DNA of 64,000 nt from Branchiostoma floridae (lineage: Eukaryota > Chordata > Leptocardii > Amphioxiformes > Branchiostomatidae). Both the position numbers and the translations under genes were made by a program. Shown one piece after another: positions 34,762-64,000 of this stretch (positions are counted from its first letter, which is position 1; the number at the start of each line of letters is the position of its first letter). The DNA lies in contig NC_049982.1 of the NCBI RefSeq assembly GCF_000003815.2, positions 21,935,767 to 21,999,766 of the forward strand. Direction: 5' to 3'. The notes under the pieces are model-generated. The model searched no databases, was not told the DNA's origin, and saw only the letters and a program-made list of their open reading frames with translations.

Positions 34762-37700
34762 ATGGCAACGCTCTCAAAAGAAGACGTGAGAAGTTCTGAG
34801 CGTAACATGAAGGTAAGTTGTCCTTTCCTTGTCGATATTTCCCCAAGGTATCAAACCAAAACGTGACTAGATGGGAACATTGGATACCGATTCTCTTTTG
34901 CCTTTCCAGTTACACACGATGGCTCTTACTTTGTCAACGACTATTCAGAGATTTCTGACAAGTTGACCTAACTACACAAACCTCAATATATTTCTATATC
35001 CATCGTTTGCCTTTTCATTCTATAATCAACATTTTTAACCGTTGCCTTTTGACTTTATTTTCTTTTGCTTTTCCTTGCTCTTTTGTGTTGTGTTGTGTTG
35101 TGTTGTGTTGTGCTGTGTTGTGTTTGTGTTCTTGTTCTCATTCCAGCCTGTTCCCTTTCCTACTCTCAGCAGAGTCAGGGAGGAGAAGCAGCAACCTCCT
35201 TTAGCCAGTAAGAAACTGTCATGTTTAAAAAATAGTCAAGTTTTATGATGTTGTTATGATGATGATGATGATGATGTCAGAAGTAGACAGTGTTCACAAC
35301 AATAAGAAATGGAGTGATGACCCCATCTTGATAGCAGGTAGTCTCATTACATTTATAAGGTAATCAACATTAACATAAATAATGACAGAACTAAACGTAC
35401 ATATTTTTCTCCCCCAAACAGGTGGAATCTACAGTACCAACTGGTGGTAGCGGATAGGAATCTGTAAGTTAGTCTTTTTTAGTATTTGGACTGTTCAATA
35501 CTAATTTTTTGTTCCGTTTCCCTACATTCTACAATTGCCACACTAACATAGAATTAAAATTCTCTATCAAAAAAGAACCACGTGTATTGTAAACATGAAT
35601 TTTGTTGGAATAGATTTTACTTTTAGCAATTTTGAAAATATGACAAAATGTCATAACATAATAAGGTGTAGCTACTGTTGAAGCAAAATATATATCACAT
35701 CTAAGCAGAGAAATGTATTTAAAGCAAAAAGGTTTTGATCTTCTTCTTCTTCGTGTCTTCGAACACTGGTTTATTGTAAAATTCATAAACACAAATCTTA
35801 TAAAATGTACTTTACCATCTTTATTTATCAGGGCAATCTGTGAACTTGAACAGGAAAAGAACAGGTTTGTGGCTATTTTCTACAACTTTTGGTACTTTTC
35901 AGTGTTGTTTCTTGTGAAGGAATAGCTGTGAAGCATTCGTAACTAACACAGACAAAACATACATACATGTTCTTCCCTGATTTTAAAAGTAGTTGTAGAC
36001 AAGGAGATTGATATGTAATTGCTTTGAGTTGTTGAAACAAATTAGGTTATTTTTGAATCGTGAATATGACATACATAGGATGCTTTCTAAAAGTTGGTTG
36101 TCAATAAAGATTCCTTTTCAAAAAGTCTATACATGAGTTAACATCCCAGTCCTTGTTACCTACAACAGGAGTGCACAGAAGGACCAAGAAATCATGGACT
36201 TAAAGATGCAGGTGGAGATGCTGAAAGCAGGAGGGGTCTGGTGAGTTATCTTCAGTGTCTTTTTGGCAACCACTCGGGCAGAAGCAGCTTTTATTCCAAC
36301 TGGTCATGAAGTTTAGATCTGTATGACTTTCATTTTACAGCTTGAGTGCAGGTAAAACATTTATATTGAATAACTTCCAGTTCCAGCTGCCAGGATACTG
36401 CAGAAGCAAAGGAACTATATGAGTTCCAGATCCTAGAGCTGGAGTTCTTGCTGGAGGAACAGAAGAAGTGAGTATCTTTTCACCAATCTCTATTTTGGAA
36501 AAATAAAAATTTTCCCTGGACCTGGAAATTTGTTGCATCTCAGCAACTTCAGGGTCACTCCTAGGGTTTTTTGACCCAATCTTGATTTTGCTCAGTGTTG
36601 TTTTGTAGTGGGATGTAAACTGACTTTACTTTCGTTTTTTATCTGGGGCTCTGCACCTTTTAATTTTACCTTTAATATGTTATTCTATTGTAGTTCCAAA
36701 TGGAAGTATCATTTCATTGTTTCCCAACATGCACAATTCAAAACTGATTAAGAAAACTGAATCCTATCACTATGAATATGGATGAATTAAGAGCAAGTGT
36801 GTCAATAGCCAAAACAGGCTATTGACAGTCAGTGTGTCAATAGCCAAATGACACACTCAGTGTGTCAATAGCCACGGCGATCAATTAATTGTAATCCTGC
36901 AGTAAGAAAATATGTTGAGACCACAGCTGCAACATCTGGGAATAAAAAGCTGTCATATAATTTACCGTAGTGATAAAATACTCAATGCCAACAACCAAAT
37001 AATCATTATGGGATGATGTTGAAATGATGTTGTGTAACATCCTGTGTGCACCATTGTCTGAAGAGAGAAAATTTAGTCATAATCAAGAAAACTTTTTTGT
37101 AGCCTGACTTTTCAGATATCACAATATTTTCAAATATGAAGTCCTGCTGTAAAAAGTAACACACTTGTTGTACAATCTTGTAACACACATTAGTTTGAAT
37201 GATACAAATGAATGTAATTTTGTATTCATTTCAAGAAATGCCTATATTCGACCTGAATGTGATTTGTTTCCATTACAGGGAGCTCTCTGAGTCCCGTGCA
37301 GACCTTGAAATGTGAGTACAGCAACTCAGTTGTAGGAATTCAAAATGATCATTAAGTACCTGTAGTTGATGTCTACTGCAAAGAAACTAAATTGGCATTT
37401 CAAAACAAATGATCTATATCTTCATGGAAATTGGTATGAATGACATGGATCTATGATTTAACTTAAATAATCAATTTTACACAGTTACATGTAACAAAAA
37501 TTTGAAGTAGAGTAAACCTTTAAGATTTACAACTAAGTAGACAAATACAAATAGATCCAGATTTACATTAAAAGCATTAATCTTAAAACAATCTCACACT
37601 TTGACACTTCTTTTGTACAAGGTTAACATTTGATGTTTGAATTGTTCCCATTTTCAGCAGTGGAGATAAAACCAGAGGCCACATCTCACTTGAGGAGGCA

Positions 37701-38821
37701 GAAGCGATGGCATACAGGATCACAGAGCTGGAGGCCCTGTTGGAGAAACAGAGGAAGTGAGTTGACTCAATATGGGAAATATAGAACAATCATCTCATTC
37801 ATACATTCTTCCCTGGCCCTGTAACGCTAGTTCACCTTTATCCGTAGGGTAACCTTTATCCGTTCTCTTTGTTCTACAATGTATTTAGGGAAATTAAGTT
37901 TACAGATGATAGTTTCAAACTGTAACATTTTTAGAATAGTACAATTTGAAACTACCGTCCATCGACTTGATATCCCTGGATACTCTGTTTAGCAACAAAA
38001 CAGATATAGGTTACCCAACGGATAAAGGTGAACTAACGTTACAAGTATCTGTGGCATCACTACAAATCCTGGCTCATTTGTTGGTATCTCAATTTCAAGT
38101 TCGCTATTGCCATTGTCACAAACTTTTGAAAGAATAAATTGGGTTGGTCATGTTAACTTTTAAATTTTGCTTTCCTTGTTTGGTTGGTATCACCTGTTGC
38201 TTTTACTGTATCCTATTGTAATTACAAATTTTATTGCTTGTTTTTTTTTTGCCCTTTATAACTGTTCAACAAAACATTTGAATGTGTCAGAATGAGCATC
38301 AGTAACTTGATTGCATTATGTATCACCCTACAGTGAAAATGATGTGCTCACAGCCAGGCTACAACTGATGCTGTCTGATGACACGGTAGAGCAAGAGAAC
38401 TCTTTCCTGCATGAGTGCTTCCTGGCCCGCTGTGCTTCACTCACCGATGATGAGGAAGAGAGGCAGACAGCTTACATAGAACAAGACGGCCCTTTCCTGC
38501 CCGAGTGCTTCCTGGCCCACACTGCTTCGCACAGCAATGACGAGGAGGGAGACAAACTTGACATGAACGTTACCCAGATCAACAACGTGAGCCCACGAGA
38601 GAAGAGTAGGAGATTTGTGAAATTATTTAGGAGTATGCTCTGCTGTTACAGCAGAAGTGTTGAAGAGGAAAGAACGTAATAGTCTATAATATATATTTGT
38701 ATGTCATTTTAACGATAGTATGACCTACTGGACAACAGTGGAGCCTTGCCAGGGGTCATGTTGTTTCACCACCACTTACATCAGCAGCAACAAGGACATT
38801 ACTGTCTACCAGCAGCTGTGA
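34762..38821 (+). CDS. Unrecognised coiled-coil protein gene, tandem copy 1
   Basis: Proposed exons: 34762-34812, 35147-35217, 35422-35463, 35832-35864, 36169-36240, 36381-36467, 37279-37311, 37658-37756, 38334-38675 or to the stop at 38679. The start MATLSKEDV is followed by PVPFPTLSRVREE. The inner exons encode heptad- and hendecad-like segments (QYQLVVADR, ICELEQEKNR, DLKMQVEMLK, ILELEFLLEEQ, RITELEALLEKQ). The last exon carries two degenerate copies of the FLPECFLA motif. From exon 3 onward every junction carries two bases. Exon 2 fits only if the donor is the weak GT at 35218; the stronger gtaagaa at 35208 would shift the frame. A 43-nt GT...AG segment (38676-38718) separates the apparent stop from a conserved tail ending at 38821. 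No known family is recognised; a coiled-coil scaffold-like protein is the most that can be said. Confidence 0.7.
37821..38042. mobile_element. MITE with about 35-bp inverted ends in a copy 1 intron
   Basis: The left end GTAACGCTAGTTCACCTTTA continues to GGGTAACCT. The right end mirrors it, with aggttaccc at its inner edge and ctaacgttac at its outer edge. The arms match over about 35 bp with a few differences, in a 222-bp element with no coding capacity. A related, more diverged copy lies in an intron of gene copy 2 (about 43631-43815). Confidence 0.7.
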
Positions 38822-39289
38822 ACTGTTCCAATGCTCTATAATGAATTGTGTATGATCTGAAAGCCAAATATATGCTGTCAAAGGGATAGTATGATAATAT
38901 ATTCCAATGTGTTTTCCAGAGGTCTTATTTGTAAACAATGAGAGATCTGACAAGACTTTTATCAAGAAATGAAAAATATGTATTATTTTGTATGGCCAAT
39001 TTTATCAAACATTTTTAACATGAGAGATGCTCTAATTTCGTCAAGCAAATTTATGTGATATTGTCTGTCAATGGCTGTGAAGGAGACATGCAGTCTGACA
39101 ATACATGTGTGTAGTGTGTACAAGGCTGTGCTGTATTCCTTGTTCTCAGCTTCATGACTGGTACAATTCTGACTAGTGTTTATCATATTTGATATAAAAA
39201 GCTATTTTCTCTGGAGGTGCCTTAAATGAAACAAAATGCGTCGGACTGCTGAAGTGTATTAGGAGCAAAAAAAAAGAGGAAAAAGGCCA

Positions 39290-41885: not shown

Positions 41886-43897
41886 ATGACGACTGTGTCA
41901 AAGGAAGTGAGAAGTGTTAAGCGGTATATGAAGGTAAGTTGTCCTTTCCTTGTCGGTCATTTCCCAAATCATTCAACCAAAACGTTGGGAACACATGATG
42001 GATACCGATTCTTTTTTGCACCCCAGTTACACCCGATCGTTGCATTTATTTTCCTCTTACTTTGTCAATGACTATTCAGAGATTTCTGACAAGTTGACTC
42101 AGCTACATCAACTTTCATATATTTATATAGTTTACTCTTAATAATTCTATAATCATTCAACATGTTTACCTTTTGACTTTCTTTTCCTTACCCTTTGCTT
42201 TTCCTTGCTCTGCTGTGTTGTGTTTGTGTTCTTGTTCTCATTCCAGCCTGTTCCCTTTCCTACTCTCAGCAGAGTCAGGGAGGAGAAGCAGCAACCTCCT
42301 TTAGCCAGTAAGAAACGGTTTAGTCAGTTTTATGATATCTTTATGATGAAGATGATGATGTCAGAAGTAGCCGGTGTTCTCAACAATCAGAAAAGATGAA
42401 TGGGAAAGGGTGACCAAATCTTTACATTTCAGCCCACACCAAGATGTTTGCTACTGTTACTCAAGCAAATGGATAGAATGTTGAAACAGTCAGATGATAA
42501 TCCACACATTTTCTGTGCCAATTGGTGCACCTGTCATCAAGTCATACAAAAGTCCTTAGCTTCCTGTCTCACTGGAATTCTGCATTTCAACTTAACTGCC
42601 ATTTGAATTCAATTGCAACTGTGTGTAACCTCTGAGTAGAGACAACATCACCTAATTGTTTCTATCTGTTGTTCCAGCAGTCTGAGGAGAGATACATGTA
42701 CAGCTACAGTCCAGGAGAGCCTGTATGTTCTTCACAAGTAAGTACATGCAGATCCTAAGAACATGTAAGGTAGCTTGGAGGAAGGAGTTGCAGTTCTTTA
42801 GATGGGACGTTAAGTCAAAGTAGATCAAAATTAGGAACAGTAGAAATTGAGGACTTTGGACAGATCTATGTTTGGTCAGAATTGGGCACTGTTCATGTAC
42901 TATGAAAGGATAGAAGAAAATTTAGTACCTACATAGATATGGAATACTGTTCATTGTTGCTACTGTTTAGATTTGGCAATATTTTTACCACTCTTCATGT
43001 TGACTGTCCAATTGCAAGTTTACAATACTAGATGTATTACAGCTTCAGAATGGCTTTGCTTGAATTACATTTTGAATTGTGTTAGTGCCACATACTTTCC
43101 TTTGTCTGTTGACTAGACCCCAGTGATTTGTGGGATACCCATATGGTGTTTCTGTATCGAGTCCCATAATGCTATGTATATCAATCAATCATGGCTGGTT
43201 ATTCTTTGATTTCAGATTGTTTTGCAAGAAAAAGGAAGACGCCTCCCCGTTTAACAGGTAAGACCATGTAATAATGGTTTCTGTGTGGGGATTCGGTCAA
43301 CTCTAGATTTCTTTAGAGGTAAAAATTAGAATGTACAATGCATTCATAGGCCTTATATAGTCATCTCAGATGTGCTTTTTTCTCTCATTAAAGAATAGAG
43401 ATCACATGTACCTTTCAGAATATGTTCAGGATAAAGCTGGTGTGCTACATCGAATGGCGGTTATACAGGCTATATAGATACAGATATGTGTCATAGATAC
43501 AGATGTGTCAACTGGACCCAAATGCTCATATAACTCCAGTTCTTGTCTATCTAGTTATCAATGTTTCCATCTATTGCATGTAGAAACTTTCCTTGTCCTT
43601 GGTGCTGAATGAAAATCTGCTTTAACATATAACTCCAGTTCACCTTTATCTGCGGGTAACCTTTATTCCTTGTTTTAAAATCAGGGTATTCAAGGATATG
43701 AAGTGAATGGACAATGGATTCAATTTGCAATATTTATCCCAATATGGACTTGATTTCCTAAATCCCAGTTATACTATTAGGTTACCCAGCAGATAAAATA
43801 TGAAGTAACTTTACATGTGTGTATTTGCATCATCACGTGCTTGTGTGTGCGTGGGCAGAAATGTAACGTTATGTGTGTGCATGTAATCTTTATTACA

Positions 43898-43948
<51 letters not shown>

Positions 43949-46900
43949 TGTGTGTGTGCGTCAGCATGAGTCCGGCGGGCGGGGGGTTTGCATTTTCCAG
44001 CTCGTTTGAAAGCAAATAGACTAATCCTTCCTAATTTACAGGGAGGCTGCAGAGCTTCTAGAGCTGGCTCAAGAGTAAGTCAACAGATTACTTTAATTTC
44101 TTATTGCCTTATCAGCCAAAAGTCAAATACTTCACTGACAATGTAAAACTAAAATCTAGAAGAAGGTAACACACCAGCCTCGTAAGCATAAGGTGCTAGC
44201 TTATATATAGAGTGAGCATCAATCATACTTTATCATAAGAAAGTTGTGTTTGTAAAGTCATTGACAGAATTGATTGTTTGGAATTGTCTCCCCAAAACAG
44301 GCAAGCTGAAGCTGCTGAGGATGACCTGGTCAGGACGTCCTTCCATAATGCAGAACTGCAGATGCTGCTAACTGATGAGAAGCTGTGAGTCTTTAAGTCT
44401 TTATCATTTTCTGCTGTTTAATTTGTCTCTATCATTTTCTCTGTTTGATTTCTACCATGTATTTTATTCTGTTTCTTTTGTTGTTGGAAGTCCTTAGGCC
44501 AGGGACGGGCCCCTTGCTCCTCTCCGTCAAGTATTTCCAAGTTGATACATCTGATAACCAGTAAACATCCTGAACCTCCAGTGTTGATAAGATAGACCTT
44601 CTTGGAAACTTTTTTAATTTGCAGTTTTTAGAGTTGTGACTAGAATGGTATAATATTATGATCTGACACAATGAGCAATTTTGTATATTCACTACAATTT
44701 ATGTCAATGCACATTGTACATTTCATTATATCACAGACAAGCTGATGATGCAAAGGTCCAACACGAAAGGTATGAAGATGAATTTTTAACTCTTCAGTTT
44801 TGGTCCATCCTTTCAGATCTTGTTGTAATTGTAAGACACTTAATTTGTACCATACCAACATACCATAACATTTTGTGTCCATTGCAATAAATACTTGTAT
44901 TAAACCATATGATTTGTTCTCAAATACAGGGAGCTCTCTCAGGCCCATGCAGACTTAGAAATGTAAGTGGCTGTTTGACTTCTGCTCTAAACAAATTGTT
45001 GTAATCAAGAATGAATATATCAGGTATGGACAGATACATTAAACATTACAAAAGAAAACTCATTTTGCATAAGGTGATTTCTCCTGAAAAGAAATCAAAA
45101 GCAATTTTCAAAACCATTGGCTATTTTTGTGAAGAGACATCATAAACTAGAAAGGCAGACATTTGCTTAAGAGCAAATACAGCATATTTCAGCCATACCC
45201 CTTCCCACGCAACCTTGGACTGTTCCAAATCACCCCTGCGCAAAAATGGAACATCCTCTTAACAGTACATTATCCCCCAAAGTGGACTGGTATTGTGAAT
45301 TGATTCCAGGTAAAGGCAGAGCTTGCTTCTATTTTTCAGAAAATGACAATAATCACACCTTCCATTCAGAAAATTTTCATCATGACTGAAAATTGTTGAA
45401 TGACTTCATGTAATGTCATTAACAATTTTCAGTACGATAACTAGGTGTAAGTTTAAAAAAGTATAAGCTCCTTGTGATGTGGGTACATTTATTATTGCAG
45501 TGAACTTTTTTTATTCAAGTAGGGCATACGATTTAATAATTATCAAGCAGGTGCAGGTACTGTAGGAGCGTTTGTTTTCTTCAAGCTGTAAAACTGTTAA
45601 ACTGCTTTACTTTGTATGCAATCAGCCATCGAGCCTATTCTTATTTTAGTTTAACAACTCAGTCCTGCCAGACCCGGAAGATACGATTGAACCTTGTTCG
45701 AGGATTTATTTTCGTCTGTCTGGTCAGTCTGTTCATACCCTGGCGCTGAGAGTGTTTTATTGGGCTGAAACTCTGGCAGTTTAAAGTTACTTACAATTTA
45801 AATGTTCAAAGTTTATGTCAAACAACAACAGCACTAGGAACACATACATTTGCTCTGGAGAAAATACAGCAGTTTTTGCAAGTTCCAGTCCAGTGATAGA
45901 AATGTGGCCACTATAGACAGGTGGTCACTATAGAGAAAAATGCTGATCTATTGACTAGGAGCCATACGTTACATATGATTTCAGTACACTGATCATTAAT
46001 CATATAAACATTGCACAGGTAAGCCAATTGTTTAGATGTACAATTAAGTTCAAATAATTCTGAAGAGAAATATTGATGAGAAAATAATCATTCTCGCCAC
46101 TGTCTAACTTATAATTACGTATCAAAACTAAACGCAGATTTTCTAACTAACGCACCTTTCGCCGACTTCATCAAAGGACCGCCGGCTATCAATCAAACAC
46201 GGCTGTTGATTAGACTTAGAGTTTCAAACAGTCATGTGCTGTGTGCCAGTTGACAGCGAACTTCATGCTACGTGATGTTTTACATTGCTTGGACCTTCTT
46301 TCCTACAGCGGTGCTTCTACAAAATATTTAGACTGTAACACTGAGTCCCACATGTTTTATAGAATAGAATTTGACGCAGAACAGCGTTTTTTGCTGGGTA
46401 TTTTTTTTTAAACATGTCCGTGGGAATATCAGCGAGGCGGCGACGTAGGGATATCAGACCGTCAACAAAAGTCGCACGGCGGCTAACGGCGCAGCGAAGA
46501 TACTAGCGCTATAAATAAGCGCTTCAACTAAGGATGGCAACCCGTACAATATTTTTGTATACTGTTGAGCTAAGTAAAGTTTGTTGTTTATGAGGTTTTA
46601 GTTGTCTTTGAAGCTTAGACCCTAAATATTTTAAAGTCAAACTGCTGAAGAGAAGTAAGTGACTGCTACGATTATCGTAGATATGGCCCTAAAAAAACTA
46701 ATAAAAGAAGCCTTCTCAATAGTCTAAAATGCAAGAGCTTCCGGGGGGGCTTCGCCCACCTGGGTCCCCCCCCACAGTGGCCCTGCCCCTGGACCCCGCC
46801 AGGGACATTCGGCGGCCCCCGGACCCCTGTCCGACGCTTTGAAAAAATCCTGGCGAGAAGTCTGTACGGCCTGAGTCTTCAAGTTAACGTATTGTGTGGT

Positions 46901-49900
46901 CCCGCTTATGAATATTAATTAGCCTTCGCTTTCCTCTTCGCTGATTGGCTGAACCATTAATTGAATGAACTCTTCCTGCCGGCTAGACGCAGGTGCAGAT
47001 GTCGGCTCTGTGGGGTGAACGTCCGAAAGGTCATGGCATGGAGAACGAAAGAAAACCAATTTCCCCTAAAAAAAAGTGCTGTAATTAAGCCTTTTACAGT
47101 ACTTTATGCCAAAAATTTTACTTGGATCATTTTACCAACTATCTTATGCCTATCTATACCAAATGTTACTCATACCAGGGTACAGGGGTGCAAAATATAC
47201 CGTTATAAGACCGTCAACAACAGTCGCACGGAGCTAACAGCGAAGCGAAAATACCATCGCTAGCGTTTCAACTTCGGATAACAAGTTATAAGTACTGTTG
47301 AACTCAGTAACGTTAAAGTTTGTTTTTAGTTGCCTTTGACGGTTTGACCTGAAATAGTGTTACGCTAAACTCCTGAAGAGAAGTTAAGTGACTGCTGCGA
47401 TTATCATAGATATGCCCCTAAGAACTGATACAATATAAAGCCTTCTAAAATGCGAGAGCCTTAGGCGGGCTTCGCTCCCCCTGGCGGGAACACTGCTATA
47501 TATGGGATCATGAGGCCCCGCTTATGAATATTAATTAGCCTTTGGCCTCCTCTTCGCTGATTGGCTAGGTCTTTGATTCAATTAACTCTCCGGCTGACGC
47601 GCACAGGTGTGGCTCTGTACGGGGTCACGGAAGGTCACGTCAGGAGGCAAAAAGAAAACAAATTTCCCCTCAGAAAAGTGCCAAAATTAATCATTCTAAA
47701 GTTGTTTATGTCAAAATTTTTACTTGAATCTTGTTACCAAGTATCTAATGCCTATCTATACCAAATTTCAGGTCATTTAATTGTAATACCAGGGTACAGG
47801 AGCCAAAAGTGTCCTTTTTTGGTCAAAAATTGGCCAAAAATCGCAAAAATAAGCATTTTGTTGCACTTTACACCAAAAGTGTTATTGAATTTATATGAAG
47901 GGATTATCAAGGCACATCTGTGTCAAATTTCAGCTCATTCGGTTGCAATACCAAGGTAGAGGAGCCAAAAGTGTCCTTTTTTGGTCAAAAATTGGTCAAA
48001 AAATCGCAAAAATAAGCATTTTGTTGTACTGTACACCAAAAGTGTTATTGAATTTATATGGGGGCATTATCAAGGCACATCTCTGTCAAATTTCAGCTCA
48101 TTTGGTTGTAATACCAGGGTACAGGGGCCAAAAGTGTCCTTTTTTGGTCAAAAATTGGTCAAAAAATCGCAAAAATAAGCATTTTGTTGTACTGTACACC
48201 AAAAGTGTCATCGAATTTATATGGGAGCATTATCAAGGCACATCTCTGTCAAATTTCAGCTCATTTGGTTGTAATACCAGGGTACAGGGGCCAAAATATA
48301 CAGTTTTGGTCTAAAATTGACCAAAAAATCTCAATAAAATCATTTTAGAGGCAGATATGAAAAAAACTGAGGAAAAAGCATCAAGGTATTGGCCCATTCT
48401 ACCCCTGTGCCAAATTTCAGGTCATTCGGTCCAGGAACGGCGGAGATGAATCACTTTGAAGATTTGACAGGAGAAAGAAGAAAGAAAGAAAGAAACATTA
48501 CGAATACAATATATTTCACCATACTATGTATGGCTGAAATATAATGACATGGACTCAAGATTTGATTAGATGCATCTTCATCATTTCTATCTATTAGGGC
48601 CATCTGTGACCTACAGGAGGAAAAAAACAGGTTTGTAATATTATATTATTTTGACCACTTTCAGTACTTGTCAGTTTTGTTACTTGCAAAAAAATACTAG
48701 CAATTGTGCATCAACTTATCTTTTTTGAAAATTGCAGAAAAAATGAAAACTTTGTTTGCACTCACTCATTCTATCTTCAAAGAAGCACTGTTTTGTGAAT
48801 GTATTTGTTTGCTTTTGTTATCAATAAGTTTATGACGTATTGTAGTGCTGATACCTGTTTACTGTTCATAACCCCTGTACTGTCTATACCCCATTATCTT
48901 GTCTGTATAATCTGTTGCATCCTTACTCTTGTAGAGTCCTTACCCCAGTAACGTCCATGTCTCTGAAGTGCCAGACAGCGTACACCATTCAAATATATTC
49001 AGTGCTGTCTATAGCCCATTTGTACCCCCTGTGGTGTACAAACTGCCTACAGTCCATAGCCCCTTAAATGACCATTATTTATCCACTGTTACTCAGTAGC
49101 TTCCCCCAAAGTACTGTCTGTGCCCCCTTAACTGTCTGTACGTCCTTTAGTCTCCATAGCCAATTAAATGTCCTTCCCCTCTGTATTATCTGTACCCTGT
49201 TTAGTTTACATACTTGCTGTAGTGACCTGAAGAGGTCTCCTCTTATACTTCAAGTGTTCTTTTTGTATTAGCGGTATCTGTATTTGCACAATAGAAATGC
49301 TGTCTGTGCACCAGTTTATATTCCAATCTTTATTATCTACAACAGGAGTGCCCAGAAGCACATCCTGATAGATGACTTGAAGGCACAGGTTGCCATTCTA
49401 AAGACAGGAGGGTCCCGGTGAGTTATCTTCTGTGTCTTTTTGGCAACACCTCAGGGGCCAAAACACCTTTTATTCCATAACATAAAATATTCATATTTTT
49501 CATTTAGTTGCTTTAATGTAACAGCTTGGCTAAAGGTAGAATTATAGATAAGGTTACATTTGATGCTTTAATTATTTCCAGTTTCAGCAGTAGATATGAG
49601 GCCAGAGCCCACATCTCACCTGAAGAGGCAGAAGCGATGGCATACAGGATCGCAGAGCTGGAGGTCGTGTTAGAGGAACAGAGAAAGTGAGTTGACTCAA
49701 TATGTGGAATAAAGGACTATTATCTTGTCCATACATTCTTTCCTGGTCCTTTCTATGTATTCGTGGCTTCACTGCAAATCCAGGTTCACGTCTTGGTGTG
49801 CCTTGCACTAATTTCAATTTTGCTCTTGCAATTGTCATGTACTTTTGAATTGGGATGTTAACATTTAAGTTTGATTTCTTTGTGTTGTTGAGATTTGAAT

Positions 49901-50857
49901 ACGTCAGCATGAGTATGATTAATTTAATTGCATTTTATGTTGCCCTACAGTGAACACACCAAGCTAACAGCCCAGTTACAACAGTCTAAGGAAAAGAGTC
50001 TGCCAGCTTACACAGAACAACAAGACCACTCGTTCCTGCCTGAGTGCTTCCTGGCCCGCAGCGCCTCGCCCATTGATGAGGAAGAGATGCTGCCAGCAGA
50101 CAAGGAACACAAAGAGGACTCTTTCCTGCCTGAGTGCTTCCTGGCCCACTGCCCCTCATCCATTGATGAGGAAGAGATGCTGCCAGCAGACAATGAACAC
50201 AAAGAGGACTCTTTCCTGCCTGAGTGCTTCCTGGCCCACTGCCCCTCACCCATTGATGAGGAAGAGATGCTGCCAGCAGACATGGAACACAAAGAGGACT
50301 CTTTCCTGCCTGAGTGCTTCCTAGCCCGCTGCCCTTCACCCATGGATGATGATGAGGAGAACCTGACCTCTGATATGAACATGGACATTGCTCCCCTCAT
50401 GGAAGAACTGCTCATCAACTCCAGCTCTCTCCTGCGAGCAGATTCAGTGTCAGCCTTGGAGCAGGAGTCGCAGGACATTTTGTGTCTATCTGAGCTGCTG
50501 AGTTCAACATCTGCTGTGAGCTTGACATCATTGTGCAATGGAAGTCAGGAAAAGTCTCAAGACACCAAAATGGTAAAGTCGCAAGCTTCAGTGAACAAAG
50601 AGACGTGCAGTGGACTTCTTCAGTCTATGCTGCAAGAGGCACATCAAATCTTGTCTCTGAGTGCAAAGTTGGCCACACCGTCACCTCACCATGACAAGAC
50701 AGGGCCAATCAAAGTGCAGCTTGGTCAGGTTGTGAAGACAGAGCTTCCCACAGAGGCGACCTACAGGACAACAGTGGAGCCTTGCCAGGGGTCATGTTGT
50801 TACACAACCACTTACATCAGCAGCAACAAGGACATTACTGTCTACCAGCAGCTGTGA
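41886..50857 (+). CDS. Unrecognised coiled-coil protein gene, tandem copy 2 (longest)
   Basis: Proposed exons: 41886-41933, 42247-42317, 42678-42737, 43216-43257, 44042-44074, 44301-44384, 44737-44769, 44930-44962, 48598-48630, 49346-49417, 49588-49686, 49951-50857. Start MTTVSKEVRS. Exon 2 is identical at DNA level in all three copies. Inner exons are 33, 42, 60, 72, 84 or 99 nt, all phase 2-2, encoding charged coiled-coil stretches (EAAELLELAQ, NAELQMLLTDEKL, ELSQAHADLEM, ICDLQEEKNR, RIAELEVVLEEQ). The final 907-nt exon encodes four 30-residue acidic repeats around SFLPECFLA, then a serine-rich stretch and a cysteine-containing tail (VEPCQGSCCY) ending TVYQQL. The large intron 44963-48597 is filled with transposon and satellite debris. 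No transmembrane segment or signal peptide is seen. Function unknown. Confidence 0.75.
43631..43815. mobile_element. Diverged MITE related to the element at 37821
   Basis: The left arm contains ccagttcacctttatctgcg then gggtaacctttat. The right arm contains aggttacccagcagataaaa then gaagtaactttac. Same family as the 37821 element, in a different intron of the paralogous gene, so probably an independent insertion. Confidence 0.5.
43902..43962. repeat. (TG)n microsatellite
   Basis: About 55 bases of TG dinucleotides with a single phase break, in an intron of coiled-coil gene copy 2. Confidence 0.95.
45145..45300 (-). repeat. Fragment of the satellite-family terminus, reverse orientation
   Basis: Begins ctagaaaggcagacatttgc and continues into gcatatttcagccat, the reverse complement (with small differences) of the end segment at 30050-30105. 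It lies in the large copy 2 intron. Confidence 0.55.
46195..46860 (-). mobile_element. Internal fragment related to the 9793 hAT-like element, reverse orientation
   Basis: Reads as the reverse complement of about 9955-10520, sharing cagttgacagcgaacttc, gcggtgcttctacaaaatat, and a stretch from ggcggcgacgtagggatatc through agtgactgctacgattatcg. The terminal 16-bp ends are absent. It lies in the intron between copy 2 exons 8 and 9. Confidence 0.65.
46900..47780. repeat. Tandemly repeated composite of hAT-like and satellite-leader sequence
   Basis: The block starting cttatgaatattaattagcc appears near 46903 and again near 47519, each time followed by cttcgctgattggct, aatttcccct and atgcctatctatacca. 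The second block is preceded by another hAT-like piece (47205-47480) that repeats 46459 onward. A segmental tandem duplication of roughly 0.6-0.75 kb fits. Confidence 0.55.
47760..48545 (-). repeat. Satellite-family array, reverse orientation, about 162-bp monomers
   Basis: The word caaatttcagctcatttggt or a variant recurs near 47762, 47927, 48089, 48250 and 48412. The right end (ggagaaagaagaaagaaag, then palindromic catactatgtatgg) mirrors the left end of the array at 26550-26690. Read on the other strand it is the same family. Confidence 0.8.
49994..50353 (+). repeat. 90-bp coding tandem repeat in the last exon of copy 2
   Basis: Four units in register at 49994, 50084, 50174 and 50264, each about 90 bp (30 residues). 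Units 2 to 4 are almost identical at DNA level. Each holds the core SFLPECFLA followed by a cysteine- or serine-containing segment and DEEEMLPAD. Copy 1 retains two degenerate units at about 38400-38550. Confidence 0.92.
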
Positions 50858-53190
50858 ACTGTTCCACTGCTCTATAATGAATTGCTGAATTGCTCTATAA
50901 TATATGCTGTGAAAGTGATAGTACAATCATAATACATTCCAACATGTTTTCCGGAGGTCTTATTTGCAAAGGAGAGACCTACAATAATTTTATCAAGAAA
51001 TGAAAAATATATATTTGTATGGCCAATTTTATCAAACATTTTCAAAATGAGAGATGCTTTATTTTCACACCAAACAATTTTATGTGATTGTCATAAGCAA
51101 TGGCTGTGAAGGAGACATGCAGTCTGACAATACATGTCTGAACTGTGTACAAGGCTGTGTTGTATTCCTTGTTCTCAAAGTTTATGGCTGCTACACATTT
51201 TCTGACTAGTCTTTCTATTGAACGATCTTATTGATAAGTCTATAACTGCAGGCTATACTGACGTTCCAAGGAAGACAAAGACAGGTTGCCACCCGAAGAA
51301 TTCAGCCCATCAAGCATTTTGAAATGAACACAGACATATCAATAGCAAGACAAAGACGCTTCTTGTTGCACAAAATAGCAGTAAAACTTAAAATGTTGGA
51401 AACGTTAGCCTTTCAGAACATTCTACAGAAAATATAAATGCCACAACTTCAGTTACGAAGGGTACAAATCACTTATAACCTAATTCTGTCATAACCAATA
51501 TTGTGTTGTTTGCAAAATCTCTTGAATATTGTACAGTTATTCTTGGTTATATTTGGACACATTTTACTAACAAAATTCGATAAGCCTTAAAGATGAATAA
51601 ACCCCTTTGCTTTTTGCCATTTCTCCAAGACCGAATTTTGGAGGTGGCAAGAGGCGGTACCACACACGTATCAGGCTATAATGGATTAATATGTATTTCT
51701 GATTTCTAAATCTATCGGGACATTAGCCTATAAAGGTATACGTATTGTGTGACCATTGAGACGTCTGAAAAAGGGGTTAACACAAAAAACAATTTTGGTG
51801 ATGCGGGAACATGTGCACATCATTTATTGTATGTAATGAGTAGCTATATGTTAATGATACACGTGAACATCATCCACTTTTCCTTGACAACTTTGGCCAT
51901 TTACTTAACTTCGTCTGCTTGTGAAAAAAAAAAACTATTCAGCAGCCAAGCTAATCGCCTAGAGCCTCACATCTGTAGTTCGTTCTGAGTACGTGCTAAA
52001 CTAAACGTACACGTCAGAGGATTTCAATGTATCTCTTTAAAAGACATGAGCTTTACAGATTGTACGGATATTACAACTGTGGAATTCAATATTAACCTTT
52101 AGCATGTGGACGTGGCCATCAGCTACCAAATATTTATTGGTTATGGGTTAAGGCGGCAGGGAAAAGGTTAAACAACAGACCACGTGATAAAGTGTGAAAG
52201 AAACAGAGACTCGGCGTTGTGACATTTGTCCGGCAGATGTGTCGCTCGTCGTATCATTGAGAAGAATTGTGGGTATGTTTAATTTCTGTACCTTTAACAA
52301 ACAGCAACACATTATGTCTCTTTGGTTTATGACTAGTAACAGATTATAAAGGATTATGATAGCAAGGGTATTTGAATGTAATAACAGATAAATTGGCTGT
52401 TTCTGATGAATTCAAACTTACGGAACGAATCTTTTCAAATTATTTCACGTTGGTAATCATGTTAGCTCCAGACAATTTTCAGCATATCTTAACAGCAGGC
52501 AATGTTCAACATTGCTAGATAAACATTATGTAAATATAAGAACAGTTTAAACAATTATTCAGCAAAATTTCTATTCTAATCTGTCAAACTCCATTAATCA
52601 TTTCACGGAGGTTTGGGTTCTTTGAACTCCTGTTACTTTTGTTTGCTGGAGATTTCCATCTGCTGTCACAAAGAAAAGGATCTTTCATCTGTGTCAATAC
52701 TTAAACCTCTTGGTATGTTTCAACCATATGTACCAGAAAAGAATGCATCAAAGAGTACAAGTACGGTTGTATCTTTATCGATGTTTGCCACCATTCAGCA
52801 TATTTATCAGAAATTACCTCAACCCTGCTTGCTTGTCTTACCTCGCATGTCTTTTATATCTATTTACAGTTTTACTGAAAAATACCGATTTTGAGGATGG
52901 TATAAATTTACATCTGTTCTACAGGTGGGGAAACAGTTCAATGTGCTATGCATGAGCTGACCTATCTGGACTTACTCGGTTTGTTAATCAAAGTTACATG
53001 AACTCTTAAAACTCTGAAGATCTCTGGAGCCTACTGCATTTCATTACAGGAAAACAAATTGCAATATTGGCAGCTGGTTGAGTACTGGAACGGGCAACCT
53101 TTGTGATTAAGAATTAGACTGCTAGTAGTGATTGTTTTAAGATTAGATCACATCTTTGTTTCAAGGTAACTTAACGTATAGGACATAACA
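50858..53190. other. 3' flank of copy 2 and intergenic DNA
   Basis: The first 350 bp are clearly similar to the flank of copy 1 (38822-39180; shared phrases include gaaggagacatgcagtctga), so the duplication extends past the gene. An AATAAA lies at about 51597. From there to 53190 no coding exon is evident. A possible non-coding first exon of the LRR gene near 52200-52270 ends at a gtatgt donor. Confidence 0.45.
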
Positions 53191-54642
53191 ATGAAATACG
53201 TGGTGTTTATCTTCCTTATGAACTTGGCGTTAGGTGGAGGTACTGCACTGCCAGATAGATGCTATGTCAAAGATGGACCCGTAACTAACATCGACTGCCA
53301 GAACTCCAACCTAACAAGTCTACCTAGTAGTCTACCTCACAACGCTAACCATGTGTACTTGCAACAAAATCGTTTCCGAACAATCCCGAACTTATCTGGC
53401 CTCCGATTTCTAACCATACTAAATCTCAGCCACAACCACATCACAGAGTTTCCGTGGGGATCTTTGAAACATATGATGTACCTTACACGACTTGATCTAT
53501 CGCACAACCGTTTGACTTCAGTTAGTCTTGAACTGGCCGATACAGAGACAACAGCTCTTAATATAATTGTAAATCTTGCCTACAACAAGCTGTCCACTTT
53601 CTCGGAGGCAAACCTGGATATTCCCACTCACAATCTGCCTAGGGGGACGTTCTGTTCCAAGCATAGCGAGAGAGGGTTAAGGTTCATACACGGTAATCCT
53701 ATTCACTGTGACTGTCGTATGTCATGGCTGGCAGAGAAGGCTCGTGAGTTCCGTAGATGTTGGCCAAAGAGTGTTTCAGCAAATGATGACCCACTTTATA
53801 TAGATTTTCTCGAAAATGGTTTGCCCCATTGTAGCAGCCCTGAAAGATTCATTAACGTCCCGTTACACATGACTAACCTGTCTCTCTGTCAAACAACACC
53901 TGAAACCAGCTCTACCAAAAACACTGAGAACCGCCTGGCCATCTCCCAGAACACGACACACTACTACAATGCGTCTTTGTCTACCGGCCCAATACTGTAC
54001 GAGGGAAATAGTACCGCACGTCCACAGGTAATCACTGTCTCCTCAGCAGGTCATGTCCACTATTACACAAACTCTTCTACCCAGACGATTACGCATAGGT
54101 CCCCATCAATGGCTAAAAGTAACACCACACGATTTATTGTTATAATAACTGTGGTATTTGCACATTTGTTTTTTATGTTAATCGCTGTTACAGTCACAAA
54201 AGTCATTAAAAAGAGGCAGAATGATGATCAACCGAATGTATCACATCGCAACATGGGGTTATCACTAGCTACGGAAGGGTCTAATGCACATGCCGAGCTC
54301 ACCAATATATTTTCGAACCCAGTCTACAATAGTACCCAAAGCCAAGATCCCGCCCCAGAAATCGTAACTGCGGAAGAGTCGAATGGCAGTAATGCACGCG
54401 CTGACCTCACCGATGTATTTCCGAACCGAGCCTACAGTAGTACCCACAGCCAAGATCACGGGCCGCAAATCGCTGGTACTTACGAAGTGAATCACACCTC
54501 AGCCACAGAGTTGTACAATCAGCAGGACTCTATCACTCCATGTAGAGAAGACATATTGTACAACAGAATAAGAGGTGAATATCAGCCTGAAAGAAGCCCG
54601 ATTTACGGGCCAGAAATAACGACCAGGCGCTTTACGTTTTAG
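53191..54642 (+). CDS. Single-pass leucine-rich-repeat transmembrane protein
   Basis: Intronless 483-residue frame. Signal peptide about 1-20, LRR N-terminal cap with C24 and C36, then three to four repeats (LRFLTILNLSHNHI, LTRLDLSHNRL, NIIVNLAYNKL). The C-terminal cap begins GNPIHCDCRMSWL, with cysteines at 173, 175, 190 and 214. A glycosylated Ser/Thr-rich stalk of about 100 residues follows. The transmembrane helix is about 315-337, followed by basic residues KKR. The cytoplasmic tail has two copies of a 23-residue block 36 residues apart (364-386, 400-422), the first with NPVY, plus further tyrosine motifs. It belongs to the broad LRR receptor/adhesion class common in lancelets. No TIR or kinase domain is present. 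Start: first Met, followed directly by a strong hydrophobic leader. Confidence 0.92.
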   Translation: MKYVVFIFLMNLALGGGTALPDRCYVKDGPVTNIDCQNSNLTSLPSSLPHNANHVYLQQNRFRTIPNLSGLRFLTILNLSHNHITEFPWGSLKHMMYLTRLDLSHNRLTSVSLELADTETTALNIIVNLAYNKLSTFSEANLDIPTHNLPRGTFCSKHSERGLRFIHGNPIHCDCRMSWLAEKAREFRRCWPKSVSANDDPLYIDFLENGLPHCSSPERFINVPLHMTNLSLCQTTPETSSTKNTENRLAISQNTTHYYNASLSTGPILYEGNSTARPQVITVSSAGHVHYYTNSSTQTITHRSPSMAKSNTTRFIVIITVVFAHLFFMLIAVTVTKVIKKRQNDDQPNVSHRNMGLSLATEGSNAHAELTNIFSNPVYNSTQSQDPAPEIVTAEESNGSNARADLTDVFPNRAYSSTHSQDHGPQIAGTYEVNHTSATELYNQQDSITPCREDILYNRIRGEYQPERSPIYGPEITTRRFTF

Positions 54643-57271: not shown

Positions 57272-57380
57272 CACAAGATTCATTGCACTGTATAGTGCAC
57301 ACGTGTTGACTTGTAAAAATATCAGACTCTATGTGGATCCAGGCTGGAATCATCTACGTGCAGTTTTCTGGTAAATAATG

Positions 57381-57716
57381 AGTTCTGATTGCTAGCCCCA
57401 GGGCTTCTGATCGGTTCCAGGGTTCTGTTTGCTAGCCCCAGGGCTTCTGATCGGTTCCAGGGTTCTGTTTGCTAGCCCCAGGGCTTCTGATTGGTTCCAG
57501 AGTTCTGATTGGTAGCCCCAGGGCTTCTGATTGGTTCTCAAGTTTTGATTGCTAGCCCAAGGGTTTGTGATTACTTCCCGAGTTCTGATTGCTGGCCCCA
57601 GGGCTTATGATTGGTTCCAGAGTTCTGATTGCTAGCCCCAGGGCTTCTGATTGGTTCTCAAGTTCTGATTGCTAGCCCAAGGGCTTGTGATTGGTCCCGG
57701 GGTTCTGATTGCTGCC
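57381..57716. repeat. 40-bp minisatellite, about 8.4 copies
   Basis: Exact 40-bp period starting at 57381, with units at 57421, 57461 and onward to 57701. The consensus contains gttctgattgctagcccc and agggcttctgattggttcc. Most units contain ATTGG, the complement of a CCAAT box, usually twice or once. Confidence 0.95.
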
Positions 57717-57719
57717 CAG

Positions 57720-59083
57720 ATCACGAAATCAGAACCGGACAAGCAATCAGCGACGGCAGTTGTTAGGAAAGTGATTGCGTGTAGCTGAACAAAAGTTGGG
57801 CAGGGTCTATTATACAAAATTTGTATACCGTATAGACTTATATTTTGAATGATGCATAAACATGGTAATCATTGTGCGTTACATTTGTTGTCAATAGATC
57901 AGCATAGTTCTGCTAGTATCATTTATGAATCTATTATCAAACCACGACTGCAACATGCCATCGGTTCAGTCTGAAGTGAAGAAATACTAAAAGACGAGGG
58001 AAGAGACATGTAAACGATGAATTCAGTGTTAGCATTAGTTGTTCTGTTTCCCCCATTTTCGACTTCCAACACTTCAAGTAATGGTATTTACTATAGTATT
58101 TTATGTAAAAGTAGAACTACTGCATTTAGCTAATGTGGGCAAGAACAGGCAAAAGTAAAAATCATTTATCAGATCAGTTTTTACCAGTTAAATATGTGAT
58201 TACTGATATGTGATTCAATATATACAACTGTGGTCGAAATGGACGTTTATTGTTTTGTTGTTTTATTGCATTGCTTACAATGATTTTTATGATACATAAA
58301 ATATGATTTTCGTTATCACTCATAGAAGTAGATTGTCTTATCAATTCATACATGGAATAAAGTTGATTGACACGAATGTTGTTCATTTCAATGTGTGTAA
58401 CATCTATAGGTCCACTGATATTAGTGGGGAAAATCTCAGTCTTTTAAAAGTATAGACTTCACGTGAAATATAGAGCGACCTATTGTGATTAGTCACTAGT
58501 CTTCAAATGATTTGGCTTTAAACGTAATTATCTTTTAAATCGTTAAAGAAACGTGTAGGAAACGTTACATGTAGTGAGAAAGCAACGTTATAATATTTCT
58601 CGTTTCACCTCGTCTTCACCCCTATTATTTCCGACTTTACTTGATGGCGTTCCAATCTCACATGGATTCAGTAGCCAGCTCTAATATTGATTTGTTTGTC
58701 ACAGCAGCTCGCAGAATAATTTGTCTTACACGTTTTCAATCACTTCATGTATTTGATTTTGTTCACTTGCAATTAGCCCCATGGGCATGAACTTGCAATA
58801 AAACATTATCATTTTCAAGTATACTTGCAATTCTTGCAATTAGCCTTCGGGCATAAATTTATAATACATTTATTATTGTAGTATTATCGAATCTGTACAA
58901 AAAGGTACCACGTCATGTTCCAGTGCTATCATTTGTAGCTTGCGAGCAGGTAAAATTCTAGTCAGTAAAATTTGTATAATTGGAAAGGTCCCGTGGTACG
59001 TAGTTGTAATCTGATAACTTTTCAAAACTGTTGCTTTCTTCTAGAGATATGGGTTAAGCACAATCCTAACCCTAGCTGCTTAG
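57720..59083. other. Intergenic AT-rich DNA, no gene seen
   Basis: No exon-like sequence. Around 58770-58860 two related phrases (cttgcaattagcc...gggcat) suggest a degraded repeat tail. Confidence 0.5.
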
Positions 59084-59304
59084 NNNNNNNNNNNNNNNNN
59101 NNNNNNNNNNNNNNNNNNNNNNNNNNNNNNNNNNNNNNNNNNNNNNNNNNNNNNNNNNNNNNNNNNNNNNNNNNNNNNNNNNNNNNNNNNNNNNNNNNNN
59201 NNNNNNNNNNNNNNNNNNNNNNNNNNNNNNNNNNNNNNNNNNNNNNNNNNNNNNNNNNNNNNNNNNNNNNNNNNNNNNNNNNNNNNNNNNNNNNNNNNNN
59301 NNNN
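59084..59304. other. Assembly gap (221 N)
   Basis: Run of N just before the third copy of the duplicated upstream region; the duplication boundary is hidden here. Confidence 0.99.
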
Positions 59305-59454
59305 GTTAGAGCCAGCGTGCTTTCGATAATGCAAAAGTACGGATGTTAATTAAACTGCATACACGTTTACATACCTCTACGTGGAAAGGCTGGAAGAATA
59401 CTCAATATTTTCATGTCTTGGAGCAATGTAAATAGCATCATTTCATCAATATGG

Positions 59455-60694: not shown

Positions 60695-63600
60695 ATGACG
60701 ACTGTGTCAAAGGAAGTGAGAAGTGTTGAGCGGTACATGAAGGTAAGTTGTGCTTTCCTTGTCGGTCATTTCCCAAAATCGTTAAACCAAAACGTTACTA
60801 GTTGGGAACACGTGGATACCGATTCTCTTTTTCACCCCAGTTACACCCGATCGTTGCATTTATTTTCTTCTTACTTTGTCAACGACTATTCAGAGATTTC
60901 TGACAAGTTGATCCAACTACACCAACTTTCATATATTTCCATAGCTTACCTTTATCAATTCTATAATCAACATGTTTACCTTTTGACTTTCTTTTTCTTA
61001 CCCTTTGCTTTTCCTTGCTCTGTTGTGTTGTGTTTGTGTTCTTGTTCTCATTCCAGCCTGTTCCCTTTCCTACTCTCAGCAGAGTCAGGGAGGAGAAGCA
61101 GCAACCTCCTTTAGCCAGTAAGAAACTGTTTAGTCAGTTGATGCTGCTGTTATAATGATGATGTTGATGTCAGAAGTAGTGTTCACAACGATTCAGAAAA
61201 AGACCAATGGGGAGGGATGACCAAATGCATATATTTCAGCCCACATCAAGACACTTTTTACAGTTACTCAAGTGCTTAAGCAACTTGATAGAATTGGGAA
61301 ACAGATGTTTCAGACAGTATCCCACTGTCAGGCGAATCAGGATTAAAAGCAAAAATCTGAATGGATATGTTACAGATCCTCATCCATTCACTTACAATAA
61401 ACTTTCTGAAACATCTGACCAATTCTAAGTTCTATCCAGTTGCTTGAGTAACAGTTGATGTTACTTTACGTGTCTTACTTTACCTGGATGTCTAACCTTC
61501 ATCAACATGTACTGACTGGTAAGCCAAATCAGTGCAACCTTTGCATATCTATGTTAGTATAAGGATCAGTTGTATCTTGCTCATGGCAACATTTCAACTG
61601 TAGTGTGAAAGGACTTACTTGTAAAATCAGTCTCCATGCTTTCAAATTATCATTCAGGAGGCAAACACAATATAATGGAATTCAGCATTTGAAGTCTGGG
61701 GTAAAAGTAAAGACAACACATTTCAGGAGTGCTTGCAGTGACATTACATCACTCTAACTGTCTCTATCTGTTATTCCAGCAGTCTAAGGAGAAATACTGT
61801 CACAGTCCAGGAGACCCTGTATGCCCTTAACAAGTAAGTAACTAAACATGTAGAAAGAACATATAATGGCACCATGGATGATCTAGTAGTGAAGTGGAAG
61901 GGGTTGCAGTTATTTAGCTGGGGTTTCAAGCCAGTGTAGATCTCACAAATCAATCTGGTCTGATGTAGATTGTTATGTTATATTGAGAAAGTACAAAAGT
62001 CATATTTTTTCAAGCTGAGTTAACTGGTTTGTGGTAAAAGCCAAATTAGGAACAGTACAAATGAAAAGTTAATTAAAGACTTTGAAAAGATCCATGCTTG
62101 GTCAGACCTGGGCACTGTTCATGTATTTTCAGGATAGAAGAACATTCATCTACACAAATATGGAATACTGTGCATATTGCTACTGTTTAACAATATTTTT
62201 ATCACTCTTAATGTTGATTTACTGTCCAATTGCTATTTTCTAATACTAGATGTCCAAGTAATACAGTTTCAGAACAACTTTGCTTGAATTACTGCTTGCA
62301 CTTTATCACATGTAAAAAGTGCTGCATACTTTTCTTTGTCTGTTTACTAGACTCCAGTGATTTGTGGGATACCTATATGGAGTTTCTGTATAAAGTCACA
62401 TGATGCTTTGTATATCAATTCCTGAACACCTGTTATTCTTATTCCAGATTGTTTCTCAAGAAAAAAGAAGACGGATCCCCATTTAACAGGTAAGACTATG
62501 GTATAAGATCAACTCTAAATAGCTTCTGAGGTAAACATTAGAAAGTACTATGTAGTCAAAGGCTGTATTAATGAAGGTTAGACATCCAGTTAACAATATA
62601 CTCACACTGAAGAAATGTGTTAGATTCTACCTGAAACCTCAGACCATTTCCAAAATCATATCCAGTTGCTTGAGAAATTGCTGTTTGATGTAGTCAGGCT
62701 GGCTTCAGACTTGCCTTTCTTCTCATTAGAAAACGGGGACCACATGTACCTTTTAGATTATGTATTGACCCCAAAATACTCGTAAAATATTGTCTTCCTT
62801 GTCATCATTGTTTTTCCATCTCATTTCCTTGTCCTTGGTGCTGAATGAGAACCTGCTGCATGTGTGTATGTGCACATCACATACATGTGTGTGCACGTGC
62901 ACAAGTGTTTTTATGTGTGTCTGTGCGTGTATGTCATAATGTGTGTATATATGTAAGTTTTGATAACATGTATGTATGTTATATATACAGGGCTCGAAAT
63001 ACTGGGTGCATGTGCACCCAGGTGCACCCAAAATTGGAACTGTGCACCCAATTTTTTTAGTGGGTGCACAGGGTGCACCTAAAAATTTTCTTAGGTTTAT
63101 GTATGGAAAGATATCAAGTATACTAGTATACATCATATTCTTGACATCTAAGTGTTAGAAAGATAATAAAAATGTCTGTCATGTTACTTGTTTAAGAATT
63201 TGATAGCTAGTAACTAAGGTCTTTAGGTTTTTTTTTTACATTCTCCTTAAATTTAAGTGGTGCATCCAAAAATGTTTTGGTGCACCCAATTTTTCAAGCT
63301 GGGTGCACCAGTGCACCTGATCCCCAAAAATGAATTTCAAGCCCTGTATATACATTATATGTAACGTTTTGTGTGTGTGTGTGAGCAAGAAAGAGAGAGA
63401 GGGCATTTTCCAGCTTTTGTTCGAAAGCAAATAGACTAATCCTTCCTAATTTACAGGGAGGCTGCAGACCTTCTAGAGTTGGCTCAAGAGTAAGTTAACA
63501 GATCACTTTAATTTCTTATTGCTTTATTAGTCAGAAAATATCCAATACTACAATCGAGTACTTCACTGACATTATATAAAACTAATGTCTAGAGGAAGGT

Positions 63601-64000
63601 TAGAGAGTATGTGTAACACACCAGCTTTGTGAGCATAAAGTGCTAGCTTAACATTAGAGAGAGAGAGAGAAAGAGTGAGGGAGAGAGAGGGGGGGCATGA
63701 AACATAGTATCTCGAGAAACATGTTTTTTTTGTAAAGTCATCGACAGAATTGATTGTTTTGTATTCTCTCAAAAACAGGCAAGCTGAAGCTGCTGAGGAT
63801 GACCTGGTCAGGACGTCCTTCCATAATGCAGAACTGCAGATGCTGCTAACTGATGAGAAGCTGTGAGTCTTTTAGTCTTTAACATTTTCTGCTGATTGAT
63901 TTCTACCACATATTTAGTTCTATTTCTACTGCCTTTTAGAAGTTATCAATAGGCCAGGGACTGGCCCCTTGCTACTCTTTGTCAGGGCTCTTCAAGTTTC
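60695..64000 (+). CDS. Unrecognised coiled-coil protein gene, tandem copy 3 (runs off the window)
   Basis: Exons seen: 60695-60742, 61057-61127, 61780-61833, 62448-62489, 63457-63489, 63779-63862; later exons lie beyond the window. The exon order, sizes and phases match copy 2 (its 42678 exon is 60 nt, here 54). The 84-nt exon at 63779 is identical in sequence to that at 44301 of copy 2. Start MTTVSKEVRSVERYMK. As in the other copies, the strong gtaagaa donor after exon 2 (61118) gives the wrong phase, while the weak GT at 61128 gives the right one. Confidence 0.75.
61261..61452. mobile_element. MITE-like inverted repeat in a copy 3 intron
   Basis: Left arm cagttactcaag...caacttgatagaattggg and right arm ccaattctaagttctatcca then gttgcttgagtaac are inverted partners, with inner arms gaaacagatgtttcaga and ctgaaacatctg. 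Related single arms occur at about 5910, 12625, 42455 and 62655. Confidence 0.6.
62988..63346. mobile_element. Short hAT-like MITE (359 bp)
   Basis: Ends CAGGGCTCGAAAT and ATTTCAAGCCCTG are inverted repeats (one mismatch), with tatata-type sequence on both sides that could hide an 8-bp duplication. The interior repeats the word gggtgca/tgcaccc many times in both orientations. It has no coding capacity and lies in an intron of copy 3. Confidence 0.75.
63655..63696. repeat. (GA)n-type purine microsatellite
   Basis: Runs of gagagaga broken by aaagagtgagg and ggggggg in an intron of copy 3. Confidence 0.9.

Follow-up and report, generated by a model that had tools for sequence, protein, structure and literature searches.

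The question raised by the DNA described here, a window of 64,000 nucleotides (nt) from the amphioxus Branchiostoma floridae (NC_049982.1, positions 21,935,767 to 21,999,766), is what kind of gene is made of such short exons and how its neighbouring copies came to differ. The plus strand of this 64-kb window holds three tandem copies of one gene, at 34762-38679 (copy 1), at 41886-50857 (copy 2) and from 60695 onwards (copy 3, cut by the window end). They probably constitute a protein-coding family, unrecognised by the libraries searched, whose products would most likely be intracellular coiled-coil scaffolds and whose copies differ by the loss of an exon block. A preliminary description of the same DNA had proposed a tandem family of three copies, and the homology between copies bears this out. 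The 5′ regions, from the upstream DNA through exons 1 and 2, share 69% identity between copies 1 and 2, 71% between copies 1 and 3 and 83% between copies 2 and 3 (alignments of 1831, 1834 and 2052 columns, respectively), and the likeness extends into the introns and 5′ flanks. A tblastn search with the copy 1 and copy 2 proteins (E up to 1) listed no match beyond the three copies. A conserved CTAG or TTAG acceptor lies about 85 nt 5′ of the exon 1 ATG in each copy, and in copy 1 a conserved block located about 370 nt upstream of that acceptor ends in a possible donor, which makes a noncoding 5′ exon ahead of exon 1 likely.

Exon borders were modelled from the sequence, with AG acceptors and GT donors. 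The models comprise nine coding exons and 266 residues in copy 1, 12 coding exons and 493 residues in copy 2, and six coding exons up to the window end in copy 3. The features are as follows, where 2-2 designates an exon that runs from phase 2 to phase 2.

34762-34812, plus strand: copy 1 exon 1, 51 nt, with the start codon; ends in phase 0; in-frame TGA upstream; one-codon indel relative to copy 2
35170-35207, plus strand: copy 1 exon 2, 38 nt; the inner acceptor keeps the frame; ends in phase 2
35422-35463, plus strand: copy 1 WNLQ exon, 42 nt, 2-2, in copy 1 only; weaker support (AG/GT and open frame only)
35832-35864, plus strand: copy 1 AIC exon, 33 nt, 2-2; 26/33 identical to copy 2
36169-36240, plus strand: copy 1 72-nt exon, 2-2; homologue in copy 2
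36381-36467, plus strand: copy 1 87-nt exon, 2-2; akin to the 99-nt exons, probably to the 84-nt exon as well
37279-37311, plus strand: copy 1 ELS exon, 33 nt, 2-2; 37164-37317 matches copy 2 44819-44968 (73%)
37658-37756, plus strand: copy 1 99-nt exon, 2-2; 37619-37820 matches 49550-49750 (85%)
38334-38679, plus strand: copy 1 last exon, with two FLxECFLA repeats and the stop
36366-37618, plus strand: block with the 87-nt and ELS exons and its intron borders, present in copy 1, absent from copy 2
41886-41933, plus strand: copy 2 exon 1, 48 nt
42270-42307, plus strand: copy 2 exon 2, 38 nt, inner acceptor
42678-42737, plus strand: copy 2 60-nt exon, 2-2; homologue of the copy 3 54-nt exon
43216-43257, plus strand: copy 2 42-nt exon, 2-2; homologue in copy 3
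44042-44074, plus strand: copy 2 EAA exon, 33 nt, 2-2; homologue in copy 3
44301-44384, plus strand: copy 2 84-nt exon, 2-2; zero differences from copy 3
44737-44769, plus strand: copy 2 QAD exon, 33 nt, 2-2; AG/GT and open frame; no second match in the window
44930-44962, plus strand: copy 2 ELS exon, 33 nt, 2-2; 28/33 identical to copy 1
48598-48630, plus strand: copy 2 AIC exon, 33 nt, 2-2; 26/33 identical to copy 1
49346-49417, plus strand: copy 2 72-nt exon, 2-2; homologue in copy 1
49588-49686, plus strand: copy 2 99-nt exon, 2-2; homologue in copy 1
49951-50857, plus strand: copy 2 last exon, with four FLPECFLA units 30 residues apart, a tail and the stop
60695-60742, plus strand: copy 3 exon 1
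61080-61117, plus strand: copy 3 exon 2, inner acceptor
61780-61833, plus strand: copy 3 54-nt exon, 2-2; homologue of the copy 2 60-nt exon
62448-62489, plus strand: copy 3 42-nt exon, 2-2
63457-63489, plus strand: copy 3 EAA exon, 33 nt, 2-2
63779-63862, plus strand: copy 3 84-nt exon, 2-2, the final modelled exon ahead of the window end

The copy 2 intron between the ELS and AIC exons, 3.6 kb in length (44963-48597), contains repeated DNA, including a 163-nt tandem repeat.

All 11 internal exon types in the models of the three copies (42-nt WNLQ, AIC, 72, 87, ELS, 99, 60/54, 42, EAA, 84 and QAD) have a length that is a multiple of three (33, 42, 54/60, 72, 84, 87 or 99 nt) and run from phase 2 to phase 2; the preliminary description had stated this for nearly every inner exon. 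The pattern is far beyond chance at a phase-2 share of 0.22, a comparison that does not yield a true probability because several of the exons are related to one another. For the 60-nt exon of copy 2 and its 54-nt counterpart in copy 3, phase 2 was the sole listed frame open in both. The intron between exons 1 and 2 is in phase 0. Exon 2 has two candidate acceptors. The outer one (35147, 42247 and 61057; 61 nt) runs into a stop in exon 3 of every copy and was rejected because it breaks the frame; exon 2 must therefore begin at the inner one (35170, 42270 and 61080; 38 nt), which gives a single open frame per copy as far as modelled. The 61-nt stretch (35147-35207, 42247-42307 and 61057-61117) and the 30 nt before it are identical in the three copies, and the further flanks differ. 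Because of this identity it is possible that both acceptors are in use, or that gene conversion took place.

The proteins encoded by copies 1 and 2 are predicted to be coiled coils over much of their middle parts, in agreement with the content proposed earlier. A COILS-type score (windows of 28 and 21, P above 0.5) with the window of 28 placed two coils in copy 1 (residues 40-76 and 130-167) and three in copy 2 (residues 67-94, 96-139 and 171-209). With the window of 21, the coil covered 83 of 142 middle residues in copy 1 and 87 of 187 in copy 2, exceeding all 60 shuffles of each (maxima of 61 and 52, respectively). A single heptad register spans exon junctions over residues ~97-134 of copy 2 (P above 0.2). 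The comparison of 11- with 7-residue periodicity that had been recommended (without a shuffle control) gave a divided answer. The heptad was ahead of the hendecad in 50 of 63 windows of copy 2 62-160, in 13 of 15 windows in part of the same stretch, and in 16 of 16 windows of copy 1 42w-72. The hendecad was ahead in all 11 windows of copy 1 87-99 and in the best single window of copy 2 62-160 (1.58 versus 1.49). The coil register is mixed, heptad more than hendecad. At the other end of the protein, the last exon encodes FLxECFLA units spaced at 30-residue intervals, of which copy 2 has four and copy 1 has two. Inspection by eye, with no predictor run, showed no hydrophobic stretch within residues 1-30 of the modelled proteins.

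The point of this architecture could be small-step alternative splicing into many isoforms, in the style of micro-exon genes, but we consider this unlikely. Since all internal exons are symmetric, the skip of any of them keeps the frame, and the stretch that is identical across copies offers two candidate exon 2 acceptors, of which one would cut the protein short. However, only 4 of the 11 internal types are 33 nt long (AIC, ELS, EAA and QAD), and the copy 2 heptad register at ~97-134 crosses exon junctions, where a drop of 11 residues shifts the heptad by 4.

The preliminary description had regarded the 33-nt exons as similar segments built on a shared 11-residue module. Exons of this size are present, but they are similar only within the same type (between copies 1 and 2, 26/33 identical positions for AIC and 28/33 for ELS). 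The 13 between-type pairs showed no convincing likeness; the smallest protein P was 0.087, and the smallest DNA P values, uncorrected, were 0.0096 (AIC2-ELS2) and 0.019 (AIC2-ELS1). A common origin of the four types is unconvincing, only same-type pairs being clearly homologous, and the shared module finds no support here: the types are not detectably related, and in the mixed register most windows favour the heptad. Older relationships were found among the longer exons. When the last 60 nt were aligned at the 3′ end, the 87-nt exon matched each 99-nt exon at 37/60 positions, and the two 99-nt exons matched each other at 54/60. The 84-nt exon reached 28/60 with the 87-nt exon and 26-28/60 with the 99-nt exons (P of 0.0018 or less in letter shuffles) and is probably related to both. 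No homology was detected between the WNLQ region and the 60/42 region of copy 2 (z -1.0), and copy 1 showed no remnant of the QAD exon (z 0.0).

The clearest difference between copies concerns exon order. In copy 1 the ELS exon comes after the 87-nt exon, and in copy 2 it comes before the AIC exon, just as the preliminary description had it; copy 3 is too short to inform on order. In the copy 2 intron between the 72-nt and 99-nt exons (49418-49587), the first 129 nt match the copy 1 72-87 intron (z 18.3) and the last 38 nt match the copy 1 ELS-99 intron (z 5.4). Because this intron fuses the outer pieces of two copy 1 introns, 36366-37618 behaves as a unit, and the 87-nt and ELS exons (120 nt, 40 residues) are present or absent as a single block with both ends in introns. 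Frame-neutral exon turnover therefore took place. As the 87-nt exon is equidistant from two 99-nt exons that resemble each other far more closely, it is most likely older than the divergence of the copies. The comparison favours block loss in copy 2 as the simpler reading, although a younger 87-nt exon with faster change may be an alternative.

True exon shuffling, in which the ELS exon and its introns moved between the pre-AIC and post-87 positions in either direction, appears doubtful to us. In its favour, the two ELS exons with flanking intron share 73% identity over ~150 nt, near the likeness of orthologous exons of the two copies. Nevertheless, both orders are subsets of a longer one with two ELS exons: an ancestor with the arrangement EAA-84-QAD-ELS-AIC-72-87-ELS-99-last would yield both copies by deletion, except for the copy 1 WNLQ exon. 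A loss in copy 2 also agrees with its fused intron and with how old the 87-nt exon appears to be. Thus, the exon turnover suggested earlier holds for the two-exon block with its intronic borders, while the free shuffling suggested with it does not seem to be required by the differing order.

The weight for the exon models comes from the homology between copies and the continuous frame. The rates of silent (dS) and amino-acid (dN) change were estimated from five pooled exon pairs per comparison, leaving out exon 2 and the last exon. Copies 1 and 2 gave a dS of 0.614 and a dN of 0.207 (dN/dS 0.34), and copies 2 and 3 gave a dS of 0.182 and a dN of 0.054 (dN/dS 0.29). Exon 1 differs between copies 1 and 2 by one whole codon, and the 84-nt exon shows no difference at all between copies 2 and 3. 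A splice-consensus scan for candidate exons of 12-130 nt, with control regions read on both strands, found 2-2 candidates with an open frame in 28 of 66 cases on the plus strand of the copies, in 4 of 57 cases on the minus strand there and in 42 of 181 cases in the controls; those of 33 nt numbered 6, 0 and 2, respectively. On the plus strand of control region 1-33500 alone, 23 of 103 candidates were 2-2 and open, two of them of 33 nt. Of the 19 modelled internal exons of the copies, 5 fell below the thresholds of the scan. The splice consensus separates poorly and is weak evidence taken alone.

The coding ends of copies 1 and 2 also differ. The DNA at the end of the copy 2 frame (50758-50884) is 97% identical to copy 1 38722-38848 (family D17), which comes after the stop in copy 1, so that the homologue of the last 32 residues of copy 2 sits past the copy 1 stop. 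This conserved end could be reached through a very short intron or could be a fossil; an intron rejoining it to the copy 1 tail would be only ~43 nt long and would have to use a weak donor (38675 to 38719). Decay into pseudogenes, of all copies or of some, with some small exons due to chance, is very improbable, for while this displaced end, the WNLQ exon without a homologue and the 2-2 candidates of the control DNA speak for it, the models have no internal stop or frame break as far as modelled and dN/dS is well under 1.

Several observations weigh against a family of coding copies that differ by block loss from a common exon order. The dN/dS values rest on few sites (~56 silent sites per pooled comparison); taken singly, the ELS exon shows no silent excess (proportions of silent and amino-acid differences, pS 0.15 and pN 0.17) and the 99-nt exon hardly any (pS 0.19, pN 0.13). 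By tblastn, neither the WNLQ exon nor the QAD exon has another match in the window. The 72-nt exon reaches 19-25/60 against the 84-, 87- and 99-nt exons (25/60 with a 99-nt exon) and a P of 0.015 with an 84-nt exon, so the 84-nt relationship is not far above background. In the test series that identified the fused intron, five of seven comparisons were negative, including that of the 87-nt and 84-nt exons with their flanks (z 1.3), for which reason the link of the 84-nt exon is given as probable only. The two ELS exons, at 28/33, are far more alike than the 84-nt and 87-nt exons, at 28/60. A single block duplication therefore fails to explain both pairs, and a later duplication, move or gene conversion of ELS is possible. 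A plain Fourier test detected no coherent helical period in any of four segments. AlphaFold predicts the last exon of copy 2 poorly (mean predicted local distance difference test score, pLDDT, of 43.2); its best-predicted part would be a three-strand element at the extreme C-terminus (block means 62-68).

The reading of coding copies with block loss has its direct basis in the exon phases under the model, the homology between copies, the lower number of amino-acid than silent changes, the clean block difference and the coil prediction. We infer the direction of loss, the intracellular place, the binding role and any use of exon skipping. The protein would have a short charged N-terminus followed by an interrupted coil of ~100-150 residues over the small exons, and the 30-residue FLPECFLA-acidic repeats of the C-terminal exon may act as multivalent binding motifs. 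Deletions and duplications with both ends in introns would be frame-neutral because every internal exon runs from phase 2 to phase 2. An older round of exon duplication (87-nt, 99-nt and probably 84-nt) would lie beneath later events, in which gene duplication followed by differential block loss would have produced copies with different coil length.

The absence of a recognised family, noted in the preliminary description, persisted in our searches. Pfam and NCBIfam profiles gave no match above cut-off for copies 1 and 2 (the best, far below it at Pfam E 0.15 and NCBIfam E 0.12, were both with copy 1, and there was none for copy 2), and a Protein Data Bank (PDB) sequence search with copy 2 only returned 0 matches at E up to 1. 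Nothing relevant was found in the literature on this kind of gene, judged from titles and abstract starts. The closest kinds are the schistosome micro-exon genes (MEGs) and the aphid bicycle genes; we claim membership in neither. MEGs are described as having a coding region mostly of very short symmetric exons, mainly of 36 nt or less, that can be skipped without a frame break, as having grown by gene duplication, and as showing raised dN/dS, with a signal peptide in all products (PMC8293314, PMC4350168). The amphioxus genes share with MEGs the short frame-neutral symmetric exons and the expansion by gene duplication. Unlike MEGs, they have exons of up to 99 nt (all 11 internal types are symmetric, and only 4 of 11 are of 36 nt or less), a predicted coiled coil, a dN/dS of ~0.3 and, by eye, no hydrophobic leader in the models. 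Bicycle genes are described as having many unusually small internal exons, nearly all in phase 2, ~17 exons on average and at least 5, and CYC-motif products regarded as putative effectors of plant galls (PMC9168663). The small 2-2 internal exons (11 of 11 types) and the 9 and 12 coding exons of the amphioxus models fall within that description, whereas a predicted coiled coil differs from putative gall effectors with CYC motifs. The coiled coil, the charged residues and the tandem short repeats at one end resemble ordinary coiled-coil scaffold genes. In the latter, a uniform exon phase is not expected.

It is conceivable, although we give it a low probability, that these copies represent an independent frame-neutral small-exon family outside flatworms and aphids, encoding an intracellular coil scaffold in which gain, loss or skipping of exon blocks tunes coil length and partner choice. 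If confirmed, the family would add an apparently non-secreted case to the uniform-phase small-exon families. In the neighbouring copies one exon-block difference can be followed down to single bases, which illustrates directly that symmetric exons allow a protein to change in length and keep its frame intact.

Other features were observed in the window. Between copies 2 and 3 there is a leucine-rich-repeat open reading frame (ORF) at 53182-54642 on the plus strand (Pfam LRR_8, 2.4e-08) with a membrane-like stretch by eye, and a tandem array of a 40-nt repeat (family D1) occupies 57341-57780. A piece of a prominin-like gene lies at 1918-2391 on the plus strand (Pfam E 0.00033, score below cut-off), and an ORF for a rhodopsin-type receptor was found at 30911-32383 on the minus strand (Pfam 7tm_1, 5.9e-40).

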